Assembly (NCBI GenBank): GCA_016934985.1
Contig: JAFGRU010000019.1
Coordinates: forward strand, 1 to 64,000
DNA length: 64,000 nt
Origin: Deltaproteobacteria bacterium
Lineage (GTDB): Bacteria > Desulfobacterota > Desulfuromonadia > Desulfuromonadales > JAAYDE01
Reading direction: 5' to 3'
Below are positions 7,107 through 13,137 of this stretch, piece by piece. Each line of letters begins with the position of its first letter. Positions within the stretch are counted from its first letter, which is position 1. The notes under the pieces are model-generated. The model was not told the origin of the DNA, did no database searches, and saw nothing but the letters and a program-made list of their open reading frames with translations. The translations under genes and the position numbers were made by a program.

Positions 7107-7727
7107 ATGAAAAGCCATATGACCAAAGTAAAATTTCCCCTGGTTGTTTTTATTCCGATGTTATTTCTCCTTTCATGCACCGGAATTGGCAAAACACCAC
7201 AGCACCTTGCCGCCTCCCTGGAAACAACACCCCTCAAGACATTGGCAATATATCCCGTTTCCTACACCGCAAGGTACGCCGAACCCCTTGATGTGCGGCT
7301 AAGCCGGATAATTCTGCGCGCTACAGAAAAACAGCTTCAAGCCAGGGGCTATGACACCCTTATCCTCAGCAATGAACTCTTGCCCGCCAGCGACAAGGTT
7401 GATACCCTCGCCCTTGAGCCCACCGATATTACAGCCGGCCTGGCTGAAGGGGTTGACGGTGTCGTGGTAATCCGGGTCCTTTCCCATTTTGGCATCGACA
7501 TCACGGAACGGACTCCCGACACCCCGGGGCCTGCCATTACCATCAATGCCACAGCCAGGCTGATTTCGGTTCAAAATCCCGAGGAGTTGTGGCGGGACAA
7601 AGGGATGGGAAGAAGCTATTCACAAAGCCTCTTCCTGAGACGAACCCAATTTCTCGTCAACCTCAACGAGGCCGTTCGCTCTTTGACGGACAATCTTTTT
7701 CACACCTTCCCGGACAGAAGCAACTGA
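7107..7727 (+). CDS. Lipoprotein of unknown function, paralogue of the gene at 28272
   Basis: A 206-residue lipoprotein: the signal peptide ends in the lipobox LLSC with Cys24 as the acylation site. The mature part has TLAIYPVSY, a middle region with AEGVDGVVVIRVLSHFG, and INATARLI...ELWRDKGMGR. The same pattern recurs in the protein encoded at 28272. The layout resembles outer-membrane lipoproteins of the GNA1162/LPP20 kind that act in envelope assembly, but I cannot assign a family with certainty. GGAGG at 7096-7101 supports the ATG. The metallo-hydrolase gene follows 41 bases downstream, so the two may be cotranscribed. Confidence 0.7.
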   Translation: MKSHMTKVKFPLVVFIPMLFLLSCTGIGKTPQHLAASLETTPLKTLAIYPVSYTARYAEPLDVRLSRIILRATEKQLQARGYDTLILSNELLPASDKVDTLALEPTDITAGLAEGVDGVVVIRVLSHFGIDITERTPDTPGPAITINATARLISVQNPEELWRDKGMGRSYSQSLFLRRTQFLVNLNEAVRSLTDNLFHTFPDRSN

Positions 7728-7768
7728 TTTTTATTCGAAAAAAAGAAGTTGACAGGAAATGAGCTCCC

Positions 7769-8599
7769 ATGTCTGAAATCACCATTCTCTGCGAAAATTC
7801 CGTTGGTCGCCGTGGCAGCGCCGAACACGGCTTCTCCGCCCTGGTCGAAACCCCCGAAGGCAACATTCTTTTCGACACCGGGGCCGGAAAGTTTCTGATC
7901 GACAACGCCCTGGAGTTTGGCAAAGACCTGCGTTCCATTGAAAAAATCGTCCTGAGCCACGGTCACGATGACCATGCCGGCGGTCTGGCAAAAATTCTTG
8001 CATTGAAAGGAAAGGTCGACATCCATGCCCATCCCGAGGTCTTCCGCGACCGCTGGCTGATAAAAAAGGATAGTGATCATCGCACGTTCAAAGGGATTCC
8101 TTTCAAAAAGGCCTTTCTTTCCTCGCTCGGGGCCAACTTCATTGTCAACCGTGATTTTCAGGAGATTCTTCCGGGTGTTTTTTTGACCGGCGAAGTGCCG
8201 CGCATCACCACCTTTGAACAGCCTGATGAAAATCAGAAATACTGGGACGGCAGCAATTACGCTACCGACCCTTTCCCGGACGACCAATCACTGATTGTGC
8301 GATCCGACAAGGGTTTGACTATCATCTTCGGCTGTGCCCACGCCGGCATGATCAATATTATTCATCATGCCATGGCGAAGACCGGGATCAAGCATATTCA
8401 CGCCTTGATCGGCGGTACTCATTTGGGTTTTCTCGGCCCCGAGCGCATGGCGGCCTCCATTGCCGAACTGCAAAATTTTTCAATAAGCCACCTTGCCTGC
8501 TCCCATTGTACCGGCTTCGAGGGTGCCTTTTCCCTGCATCAGACATTCGGGGAACGCTTTCACTACGGCAACGTCGGCTTTTCCCTGGATATGGGGTAA
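7769..8599 (+). CDS. Metallo-beta-lactamase-fold hydrolase
   Basis: A 276-residue MBL-fold protein. The dinuclear metal site is seen in SHGHDDHAGGL (about residues 63-73), with further ligands likely in GCAHAGMINI and ALIGGTHLGF. The N-terminus ILCENSVGRRGSAEHGFSAL and the arrangement resemble the group annotated as dihydropterin-methyl-aminobenzene phosphate synthase homologues in archaea and anaerobes; the real substrate is not shown. It is cytoplasmic. A bidirectional terminator follows at 8631. Confidence 0.85.
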   Translation: MSEITILCENSVGRRGSAEHGFSALVETPEGNILFDTGAGKFLIDNALEFGKDLRSIEKIVLSHGHDDHAGGLAKILALKGKVDIHAHPEVFRDRWLIKKDSDHRTFKGIPFKKAFLSSLGANFIVNRDFQEILPGVFLTGEVPRITTFEQPDENQKYWDGSNYATDPFPDDQSLIVRSDKGLTIIFGCAHAGMINIIHHAMAKTGIKHIHALIGGTHLGFLGPERMAASIAELQNFSISHLACSHCTGFEGAFSLHQTFGERFHYGNVGFSLDMG

Positions 8600-9829: not shown

Positions 9830-10234
9830 TCAGGCCGACTCCAGGCGCCGATAAACCCCCTCAACTTTTTCTTCCAGCTCGGGGAAGTTGAAAGGTTTGC
9901 TGACATAATCATCGGCGCCGGCCTGAAGGGCCAGGATGCGGTCTTTTTTCTGCACCTTCGCGGTCATGGTGATAACGAAACTGTCAGCGGTGAGAGGATC
10001 CTTCTTGAGAATGCGGGTAACCTCAAGACCATCTATCTCTCCCGGCATCATGATATCGAGAAGAATAACTTCCGGGCGTTCCCGGCGAGCCACGGCAATG
10101 GCCTCTTCGCCGCTTCCCGCCCGGAAAAATCTCCGACCGTCCTTGTTCAGGACAATCTCAAGAAGCTTTTGGACTTCCGTATGGTCGTCAACAATGAGAA
10201 TTTTCTGGCAAGAATTTTCAACCAGTCGTTCCAT
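9830..10234 (-). CDS. Single-domain response regulator (CheY-like receiver)
   Basis: About 134 residues, entirely a receiver domain: acidic pair in ILIVDDHTEV, phosphorylation Asp in VILLDIMMPGE, Thr in VITMTAK and Lys in DDYVSKPFNFPE. All key residues are present, so it should be phosphorylatable. There is no output domain, which suggests a phosphorelay or protein-interaction role. The start is either the ATG at 10234 or a TTG two codons upstream; GGGA nearby does not settle it. No kinase gene is adjacent; the GAF-ANTAR gene upstream on the same strand is 226 bases away. Confidence 0.9.
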   Translation of the reverse strand: MERLVENSCQKILIVDDHTEVQKLLEIVLNKDGRRFFRAGSGEEAIAVARRERPEVILLDIMMPGEIDGLEVTRILKKDPLTADSFVITMTAKVQKKDRILALQAGADDYVSKPFNFPELEEKVEGVYRRLESA

Positions 10235-10460
10235 AAGCAAAATCCCAGGAATTGAGCTTTATGATCAATCGGATTGCCGCATTCACACCATTTTAATATA
10301 GATTTTCCTCAAGGCAAGGAAATGCTGTCCGATTCATTTTTAATTCAAACGACTCGGGCTTTGTATGGAGAGTTGGTGGGGGAAATTTTATTTACCCAAT
10401 GAAAGGGCCATGAATGGTCTTTTTTTCTCCAAAGAAATTTGTGCACAGGTTTGCAGAGGT

Positions 10461-11219
10461 TCATTTCATCTGCAGAAACAAAGGTTTCAGATCAGACAAC
10501 TTCACCTGCTGGGTCAAGACGATGGCCTCGGCAATGACCCTCATGCTTTTCCGGGTATTCATACTGAATTTTCTTAATCTGGAATAGGCGTCCTTTTCGG
10601 TGAGGCCCTCCTGTTCCATAAGAATTTTTTTGGCTGTTTCAATAGTTTTTCTCGCCTCGAGCTCATCCTTGATAACCTGACTTTCGACAACCAACCTGAA
10701 GTTTTCAATAACCACGGCAGCCTGGTTGGCGATGGACTGGATCACCCTCTCCTCATTTTTTGAAAACCGGTGGGGTCTGGAGGTGTAACAGTTGAGGACA
10801 CCTATAACCTCACCCTTGACGGTCAAAGGGACACTCAACAGAGAACACAGTTTTTCCTTTTTGGCTATTTCTTTATTGTAGTATTGATTGCTCTCACGGA
10901 CATCCAGCACACTGATGGTCTGGCCGGTTTTAGCCACTTTTCCGGAAATTCCGGTCCCGACCTTTATGTTCTCTTTTTTGTTATACTCCTCACTGATTGA
11001 TTGGGTAGCTTTAACCAGCAACTCGTTTTTGGACTCGTCAAGCAGCATCAGAGAGCAGATCTTCGATCCGAACAGTTCGGCTGTTATCGTTACGATAAAC
11101 TTCAAAATATCGTCGAGATACAAATCCGACGTGATCGCCTCACTGATTCTGGTGAGCGCCGTCAACAACTTTTCTTCATCGACTAATTCCGAATCGCTGA
11201 AAATTTCCTTGTTTTCCAT
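10461..11219 (-). CDS. GAF-ANTAR protein, probable transcription antiterminator
   Basis: A 252-residue cytoplasmic regulator. Residues about 25-175 form a GAF sensor domain (LDDILKFIVTITAELFGS..., VPLTVKGEVIGVLNCY). Residues about 188-236 are an ANTAR domain (EARKTIETAKKILMEQ, then KDAYSRLRKFSMNTRKSM), an RNA-binding helical unit that binds paired hexaloop hairpins and prevents terminator formation. It lies divergent from gdhA, whose leader holds such hairpins and a terminator (11562-11618), so gdhA is the likely target. The ligand of the GAF domain is not known. Confidence 0.9.
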   Translation of the reverse strand: MENKEIFSDSELVDEEKLLTALTRISEAITSDLYLDDILKFIVTITAELFGSKICSLMLLDESKNELLVKATQSISEEYNKKENIKVGTGISGKVAKTGQTISVLDVRESNQYYNKEIAKKEKLCSLLSVPLTVKGEVIGVLNCYTSRPHRFSKNEERVIQSIANQAAVVIENFRLVVESQVIKDELEARKTIETAKKILMEQEGLTEKDAYSRLRKFSMNTRKSMRVIAEAIVLTQQVKLSDLKPLFLQMK

Positions 11220-11535
11220 GGATTACCTGTCAATTTTTCTTCTGGAGGCTATTCCAGGGGTGGGTCCTAAACCCATCCTGGTCGATGTATTCTTTCGGGG
11301 GTTTCACCCCGCTGATGCAGTGTAAATATAGGGGAATATATTATATTTATCAAGGGTTAGAATAATAACGACCATTCAGTTTTTAACGAATCCCTTTTTT
11401 CATTGTCAGGATTGGCATTGGCCTCCAAAACTGGGGGAAACGATGCGAGGGCCACCAACATGCGAAATTGTTTTTTCACCATGAGCCCTCTTCAGAAGAA
11501 AATCCCTTGACAAACAATATAATTATTTGTAAATT
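11220..11535 (+). promoter_or_regulatory. Region between the ANTAR gene and the gdhA leader, with a likely gdhA promoter
   Basis: No gene is seen in 11220-11506. At 11507-11512 there is TTGACA, and 17 bases later TAAATT (11530-11535), a fair sigma-70 promoter that would start a transcript near 11542, just before the hairpins at 11562. A TATAAT at 11684-11689, after the leader terminator, could be a second start that bypasses it, but no good -35 element matches. Confidence 0.5.
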
Positions 11536-11561
11536 TCAACCCCGCAAAATCAAAAAAAGAA

Positions 11562-11618
11562 ATGCACAATGGCGTGCATCGCTGTGACAAAGATGTCCTT
11601 ACTGGACATCTTTTTTTT
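11562..11618 (+). promoter_or_regulatory. ANTAR-type leader: paired hexaloop hairpins overlapping a terminator before gdhA
   Basis: Hairpin P1 is ATGCAC (11562-11567), loop AATGGC, GTGCAT (11574-11579). P2 is GAC (11586-11588), loop AAAGAT, GTC (11595-11597). Both loops are six bases long with A first and G fourth, the published ANTAR target pattern. The 3' side of P2 lies inside the 5' arm of a terminator: AGATGTCC (11591-11598) pairs with GGACATCT (11604-11611), followed by eight T. P2 and the terminator exclude each other. P2 is only three base pairs, its weak point. Confidence 0.65.
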
Positions 11619-11796
11619 GTTTAAAGGACATTCATTTTGCCACCAAATGAATCACGCCCAATTCGGGACAAACAGGTTTGGATTATAATCTAAAAAAGTA
11701 AATTTCAGCAAAGATCAGTTTTTACAATCAGCCAACTGCAATTCGTCGTTTCCCCTGGCCGGGGAACAGAAAAACCCCCAAAGAAGGAGTTAAAAA

Positions 11797-13137
11797 ATGA
11801 AAAAGAAAATTGAAGATTTTCTGGCATCAGTCGTTCGCAAAAACCCCGCCGAACTCGAATTCCACCAGGCAGTACGCGAAGTGGTCGAGTCGGTCATGCC
11901 CTTCATCGAGGATAATCCCAAATATGACGAAGCCAGAATCCTAAAACGCATTGTCGAACCCGAAAGAGTCATCATGTTCCGTGTCCCCTGGGCAACGGAC
12001 AAAGGAGAAATCAAGGTCAATCGCGGGTTCAGAATTGAAATGAACAGCGCTCTCGGCCCCTACAAGGGCGGCCTCCGCTTCCATCCCAGCGTAAACCTGG
12101 GTATTTTGAAGTTTCTTGCTTTTGAACAAGTTTTCAAAAACAGCCTTACAACCCTCCCGATGGGCGGCGGCAAGGGCGGTTCCGACTTTGACCCGAAGGG
12201 TAAATCCGACAATGAAGTGATGCGATTCTGCCAAAGCTTCATGACCGAACTGCAGCGCCACATTGGCCCTGACACAGATGTACCTGCCGGCGATATCGGC
12301 GTTGGCGGCCGCGAAATCGGCTATCTTTTCGGCCAGTACAAAAGAATCCGCAATGAGTTCACCGGCGTCCTTACCGGGAAAGGCCTCAACTGGGGCGGCA
12401 GCCTGATCAGGCCCGAAGCGACAGGCTATGGCTGCGTCTACTTTGTGGAAGAAATGTTGAAAGAAAAAGGCGATTCCTTGCGCAAGAAAACCTGCGCGGT
12501 TTCCGGTTCGGGCAACGTCGCTCAATATACGGTTGAAAAATTGAACCAGCTCGGCGCCAAGGTTGTCACCCTCTCTGACTCACAGGGCTATATTTACGAC
12601 GAAAACGGCATCGATGAAGAAAAACTCGATTTTGTTTTCGAACTCAAAAACATCAAACGCGGCCGCATCAAGGAATACGCCGATAAATTCAAATGCCAGT
12701 ACTTTGAAGGAAAGCGTCCCTGGGGAGTCAAGTGCGACGCCGCTTTCCCGAGCGCGACCCAAAATGAAATCGATGAGGACGATGCCCGGCAACTGGTTGA
12801 AAACGGGTGTATTGCCGTTGGCGAAGGTGCGAACATGCCGACCACGCCCGAAGGCGTCGATGTTTTTCTGGGAGCCAAAATCCTTTATGGCCCCGGCAAG
12901 GCTGCCAATGCGGGCGGCGTTGCAACCTCAGGCCTGGAGATGAGCCAGAACAGCATGCGCCTGTCATGGCCGAGAGAAGAAGTTGATTCCAGACTCCATG
13001 AAATCATGGTCGCCATCCACAAAAATTGTATTCAGTACGGAAGAGAAGCCGATGGCTATATCAACTACGTAAAAGGGGCCAACATCGCCGGTTTCATCCG
13101 GGTAGCCGATTCCATGATGAACCAGGGATTGGTATAA
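11797..13137 (+). CDS. gdhA: NADP-type glutamate dehydrogenase (hexameric class I)
   Basis: Converts 2-oxoglutarate and ammonium to glutamate in the cytoplasm. The 446 residues match the usual size. The catalytic lysine is K126 in LPMGGGKGGSDFDP, the substrate Lys is in GPYKGGLRF (about residue 90), and the Rossmann motif VSGSGNVAQYT is at about 235. AAGGAG lies before the ATG. It is preceded by a long leader with a terminator that an ANTAR protein probably controls, and followed by a strong terminator, so it is monocistronic. It is a main ammonium-assimilation step at high ammonium. Confidence 0.96.
   Translation: MKKKIEDFLASVVRKNPAELEFHQAVREVVESVMPFIEDNPKYDEARILKRIVEPERVIMFRVPWATDKGEIKVNRGFRIEMNSALGPYKGGLRFHPSVNLGILKFLAFEQVFKNSLTTLPMGGGKGGSDFDPKGKSDNEVMRFCQSFMTELQRHIGPDTDVPAGDIGVGGREIGYLFGQYKRIRNEFTGVLTGKGLNWGGSLIRPEATGYGCVYFVEEMLKEKGDSLRKKTCAVSGSGNVAQYTVEKLNQLGAKVVTLSDSQGYIYDENGIDEEKLDFVFELKNIKRGRIKEYADKFKCQYFEGKRPWGVKCDAAFPSATQNEIDEDDARQLVENGCIAVGEGANMPTTPEGVDVFLGAKILYGPGKAANAGGVATSGLEMSQNSMRLSWPREEVDSRLHEIMVAIHKNCIQYGREADGYINYVKGANIAGFIRVADSMMNQGLV

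Follow-up and report, generated by a model that had tools for sequence, protein, structure and literature searches.

A predicted ANTAR-type antitermination leader before gdhA and its neighbouring GAF-ANTAR protein in a family of the Desulfuromonadales

The closest described systems are the eut leaders of Enterococcus faecalis and their regulator EutV/EutW, which (PMC3369931, PMC8934654) share with the element presented here two hexaloop hairpins with A at loop position 1 and G at position 4 (A1/G4), the second of which, P2, overlaps an intrinsic terminator. The regulator of ethanolamine use, EutV, is a response regulator that becomes phosphorylated, whereas at our locus a GAF domain stands in place of the receiver and the target is gdhA. 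Leader antitermination by an ANTAR protein is likewise found in NasR-nasF and AmiR-amiE, with nitrate assimilation and amidase as targets, and NasR is one-component and ligand-controlled, as the GAF-ANTAR protein here presumably is. The N-terminal region of NasR senses nitrate and that of AmiR is receiver-like, neither having this GAF domain. In Geobacter, of the same broad lineage as our host, the GnfK/GnfR system controls nitrogen-fixation genes by ANTAR antitermination, GnfR being a response regulator. The covariance search of Ramesh et al. (2012; PMC3369931) predicted ANTAR RNAs upstream of genes for P-II proteins, ammonium transporters, and glutamate and glutamine synthases, with glutamate synthase leaders of Desulfotomaculum reducens among them; in its main text gdhA is not named as a target, and PAS- and GAF-linked ANTAR proteins are said to be without a characterised member. 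Among open-access main texts our literature searches turned up no description of an ANTAR leader upstream of gdhA. The mechanism is of a known kind, ANTAR control of nitrogen genes having been predicted in that 2012 text; the regulator, the target pairing and the transfer history appear new.

The window, by which we mean the whole 64,000-nucleotide stretch of DNA that was analysed, comes from a host in the phylum Desulfobacterota, order Desulfuromonadales and family JAAYDE01. A first-pass annotation made from its letters had placed at 11562-11618 an antitermination leader before gdhA, paired with a divergent GAF-ANTAR gene, and had named RNA folding, an alignment of gdhA leaders in relatives and covariation in the first hairpin, P1, as checks. 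Our re-mapping returned the same limits for the whole element (+ strand), which lies downstream of a promoter-like site and upstream of gdhA and consists of P1, P2 and a terminator. The candidate promoter of the leader is a sigma-70-like site, TTGACA-17-TAAATT (11507..11535, + strand), and P1 starts 26 bases past its -10 hexamer. P1 (11562-11579, + strand) is ATGCAC-AATGGC-GTGCAT, with 6 bp and the hexaloop AATGGC. P2 (11586-11597, + strand), the antiterminator form, is GAC-AAAGAT-GTC, with the hexaloop AAAGAT on a weak stem of 3 bp plus a T-C mismatch, just reaching the minimum stem given for the motif in the available text of PMC3369931. Rereading 11540-11620 gave the annotated letters in both loops, each with A1 and G4.

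The intrinsic terminator (11589-11618, + strand) consists of a 10-bp hairpin, AAAGATGTCC-TTACT-GGACATCTTT, at 11589-11613 and a T8 tract at 11611-11618. Its 5' arm (11589-11598) contains the P2 loop and the P2 3' arm, and the annotated sharing of bases between P2 and a strong T8 terminator some 180 bases before gdhA therefore holds, over 11589-11597. The gdhA ATG lies 183 bases beyond the last paired base of the terminator, and the ribosome-binding site falls outside the motif, about 170 bases further on. The stretch from the promoter-like site to the terminator contains no + strand gene, so that the leader transcript of gdhA is the only one that this terminator can end. The gene that would be controlled, gdhA (11797..13137, + strand), encodes a glutamate dehydrogenase of 446 aa (ELFV_dehydrog, 1e-92; ELFV_dehydrog_N, 1e-52).

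The divergent gene (10461..11219, - strand) encodes the presumed antiterminator, a protein of 252 aa in which Pfam finds both annotated domains, GAF at residues 35-172 (E 2e-22) and ANTAR at 184-234 (E 2e-18), the ANTAR domain (PF03861) scoring 66.4 bits against a curated cut-off of 27.3. When the whole genome was searched with the Pfam ANTAR model, this was the only ANTAR gene found; the genome is 90% complete, so that a further one could be missing. The AlphaFold2 model (pLDDT 86) predicts a GAF domain, a long linking helix and a helical ANTAR domain. In a gapless alignment, 9 of the 11 RNA-contact residues of EutV are identical (R142, K143, K149, E160, Y164, R168, M172, N173 and R175) and K147 and R177 are not kept; the contacts are those of PMC8934654, where Tyr164 stacks on G4, and the two-residue numbering shift to them is a mapping made in this analysis. 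We found no receiver domain with a phosphorylated Asp. The N-terminal domain is a GAF, with GAF fold matches, and with the receiver so replaced the protein is not of the response-regulator type represented by EutV and GnfR. The top fold matches of this part are the PtsP GAF domains 3trc and 3ci6, at 24-26% identity and with many other GAFs scoring close, and this PtsP-like predicted fold weakly suggests a nitrogen-status ligand. Control is presumably ligand-sensed, as first annotated, the ground for this being the presence of the GAF domain. Within that domain, C144 is invariant in 20/20 GAF-ANTAR proteins and C55 occurs in 19/20, and redox or metal sensing is possible. On the same strand, 220 bases downstream of the GAF-ANTAR gene, a gene at 9830-10240 (-) codes for a stand-alone receiver protein of the response-regulator type.

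Taking these parts together, we propose, with a probability of roughly 0.9, that the gdhA 5' leader is an ANTAR-type attenuator and the neighbouring one-component GAF-ANTAR protein its antiterminator, acquired horizontally as a cassette. Transcription would start near 11540. When the regulator is not active, the nascent RNA would fold into the terminator at 11589-11613 and stop about 180 bases before gdhA. When it is active, presumably as a dimer whose state depends, again presumably, on a small molecule bound to the GAF domain, the ANTAR domains would bind the hexaloop of P1 and then that of P2. With P2 held, the first bases of the terminator 5' arm would be unavailable and the polymerase would read through into gdhA, so that the direction of control would be activation.

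The alignment of leaders from relatives was done in the host family, which comprises four genomes, three of them with a GAF-ANTAR gene. In one of these, G003 (the record named Deltaproteobacteria bacterium RGIG7977, from water buffalo rumen), which belongs to another genus, the GAF-ANTAR gene is also divergent from gdhA in the same layout, and the intergenic gap contains ACGCAC-AACGGC-GTGCGT, GAC-AAAGGC-GTC and a terminator. A third genus is represented by G001 (Desulfuromonadaceae bacterium AS09scLD_110), with two gdhA genes, each preceded by P1, P2 and a terminator, one of these leaders sitting on another contig. A further match in G001 (contig C157, L177) has no terminator-like tail and was not counted. 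In the fourth family genome gdhA is cut off before its start and its leader is not readable. The four readable gdhA leaders all have A1/G4 fixed in both loops, the closing C-G/A-U pairs and the P2-terminator overlap kept, and the terminator pairs intact (10/10), with TTGACA at the corresponding place before each. Compensatory changes occur among them at two terminator pairs, the fifth (A-U or G-C) and the sixth (U-A or C-G). Positions 5 and 6 of the P2 loop co-vary with the terminator 3' arm while A1/G4 stay fixed, as expected if positions 5 and 6 serve the terminator and A1/G4 the protein. A1/G4 is thus conserved in 4/4 leaders while the bases of P1 and of the terminator change in compensation, which is the kind of outcome that the first-pass annotation had named as support.

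A covariance model free of the family was built from ten leaders, all from outside it. With this model 11562-11598 is the top match of the window (22.7 bits, E 0.0012) and also of its own genome, although at an E of only 0.067 genome-wide; the G003 leader scored 37.9 bits and the two G001 leaders, neither of them used in model building, 30.0 and 25.6 bits. The gdhA leaders rank first in all three family genomes that have them. Covariation in P1 and P2 was measured over 12 leaders, in which 95.8% of cells are paired. Four of the six P1 pairs have double-sided changes, and the covariation score of 0.432 was matched by 0/500 shuffles, slid versions reaching at most 0.145, so that the covariation looked for in P1 is present. 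The three inner P2 pairs never vary and P2 pairing accordingly gets no covariation evidence. All 15 collected leaders have GAC/GTC and A1/G4, A1/G4 having been a scan requirement for most; the fixation of the loop A and G in most phylum leaders is therefore partly built into the scan, and the G003 leader, which was located via the protein and not via the motif, is free of this. The models leave out L067, in which P2 was misaligned, and L023 and L025, in which P1 was.

By folding energy, the terminator (-13.4 kcal/mol, z -7.1) and the 63-nt leader (-22.9, z -4.1, with 0/200 shuffles as good) lie far beyond shuffled sequence. P1 and P2 alone (-11.2, z -1.4) do not; being unremarkable by energy, they had to be decided by comparison with relatives. 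In 486 kb of real sequence, most of it chosen for adjoining GAF-ANTAR genes, a scan for P1, P2 and an overlapping terminator returned 9 sites; in a shuffled copy it returned none. A chance origin of the leader is very unlikely. The scanner also reported a second site in the window, at 1756-1822, which we dropped for its weak A/U P1 and for not being found by the covariance model. A strict pattern search of the host's own genome gave no match, the pattern carrying constraints that the element need not satisfy. At the gathering threshold an Rfam search of the window matched only a tRNA, and the motif is thus covered by no curated family at that threshold.

As far as its sequence can tell, then, the leader has every testable feature of the ANTAR dual-hexaloop RNA class. 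It has two hairpins of at least 3 bp with six-base loops carrying A1 and G4, its P2 overlaps an intrinsic terminator upstream of a gene, the host encodes an ANTAR protein, and compensatory stem changes occur in relatives for P1 and the terminator, P2 not being included in these.

The same RNA and regulator recur across the phylum. Outside the host family no GAF-ANTAR protein was found among 136 genomes of the order, and across the phylum it is present in 100/395 genomes; in genome contigs it was found by an alignment scan where a back-translated single-protein scan found none. Many of these genes are accompanied by leaders, in most cases immediately downstream, that follow the consensus nnnCAC-AAtGGC-GTGnnn ... 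GAC-AAAGGC-GTC and carry a terminator. The gene that follows is most often glutamate synthase, and gdhA in G207. Searched against 297 phylum genomes, the 12-leader model had a match at E<=0.001 in 40, and 34 of these 40 have a GAF-ANTAR gene, compared with 100/395 overall, in a hand comparison of two lists whose samples overlap but differ. Downstream of the 29 best matches we found glutamate synthase (21), glnK (3), gdhA (1), glnA (1) and genes not identified (3). At L055/L221 GAF-ANTAR, leader and gdhA follow one another in one direction. Within the order, further matches at E<0.003 (G046, G047, G042, G005 and G130) lead into glnK-amtB, a target class already described for ANTAR RNAs. These leaders fit the Geobacter GnfK/GnfR type, whereas the order's tested gdhA genes have no such leader.

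Two other arrangements were seen in these records. At L052 (G171; about 7548-8261) a GAF-ANTAR gene is divergent from two tandem glutamate synthase-like genes, and here the scanner showed no clear hexaloop leader. Hexaloop leaders also occur upstream of the GAF-ANTAR gene itself (L101 4659-4700, L097 3061-3106, L089 1659-1713, L141 191-235), which, in several distant records, suggests autoregulation.

The hairpin could be an ordinary constitutive terminator that ends a short untranslated RNA or blocks read-in, the hexaloops being coincidental, and this would suit a terminator that is by far the strongest element beside a P1 and P2 of usual folding energy. However, each of the four gdhA leaders of the family repeats P1, the spacing, A1/G4 and the overlap of P2 with the terminator, as do sites beside GAF-ANTAR genes across the phylum, shuffled sequence holds no comparable site, and the hairpin sits within gdhA's own leader; we regard this explanation as exceedingly improbable. 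A slim chance is left to the view that the leader is the target of a different ANTAR protein and that the neighbouring GAF-ANTAR protein controls something else. ANTAR regulators can act in trans, as the G001 gdhA leader on another contig recalls, but only a single ANTAR gene was found in the host genome, with only a single clear RNA target, and the two are side by side here as in the sibling genus G003.

Sequence alone gives no direction of control, and the protein might bind the leader and lower gdhA expression, by stabilised termination or blocked ribosome access, or might act with no GAF ligand. The available text of PMC3369931 mentions ANTAR RNAs near ribosome-binding sites that may act on translation. 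Against this, P2 and the terminator are mutually exclusive, as they are in those eut, nas and ami antitermination systems that have been characterised, and the gdhA ribosome-binding site is far outside the motif. We give this version a small chance. Antitermination of gdhA by the adjacent GAF-ANTAR protein, as first annotated, is the reading that family conservation, covariation and the repeated linkage in the phylum favour.

The gdhA of the window is 63-67% identical to the other gdhA genes of the order, before which no leader RNA was found (0/28 loci), and 76-79% identical to Omnitrophota gdhA. A tree of 45 gdhA rows joins the family to Omnitrophota (99/98) and sets it outside the clade of the order's other genes (100/100). 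In the GAF-ANTAR tree the family is nested among seven Omnitrophota rows (99/98), including L080-L082, where gdhA comes after GAF-ANTAR and the leaders bear hexaloops. L141, a record that carries the label Clostridia, has its leader, GAF-ANTAR and gdhA all pointing the same way. Nearly all records are metagenome bins. These trees suggest that regulator, leader and gdhA reached the family together, as one cassette related to Omnitrophota; as Omnitrophota gdhA was sampled only from beside GAF-ANTAR genes, joint transfer is likely, not proven.

Several Omnitrophota sites vary from this arrangement. The GAF-ANTAR-gdhA gaps of L080 (5715-6020), L081 (5680-5995) and L082 (5680-6000) seem to hold two successive terminators and hexaloop-like hairpins, one P1 among them having a seven-base loop (GCAC-AAAGTGA-GTGC). 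The gdhA leaders at L093 (3233-3279), L133 (8515-8568) and L147 (about 7760-7860) have a good P2 and terminator and no clear P1, and are possible single-hexaloop targets. Other RNA sites lie before a glutamine synthetase (L077 8198-8244), an NAD/FAD-binding oxidoreductase resembling a glutamate synthase partner (L104 832-875) and a gene region toward an ammonium transporter (L104 7531-7573), the genes being judged by eye from translations. The RNA model thus reveals an apparent nitrogen-assimilation regulon in Omnitrophota.

More broadly, GAF-ANTAR proteins may be widespread, uncharacterised one-component RNA-binding nitrogen sensors that form with their leaders a portable cassette, the same hexaloop switch standing on glutamate synthase in most lineages and on gdhA in others, and the gdhA version having crossed from Omnitrophota into this Desulfuromonadales-like family and replaced the native gdhA. 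We hold the chances of this wider proposal to be about even. With one regulator, one leader and one enzyme, the locus is a compact system for questions of GAF-ANTAR sensing and one-component antitermination. Its history points to the possibility that complete units of regulator, switch and enzyme for ammonia assimilation pass from one phylum to another, and with the RNA model an apparent nitrogen regulon comes into view in little-studied groups, the Omnitrophota among them.
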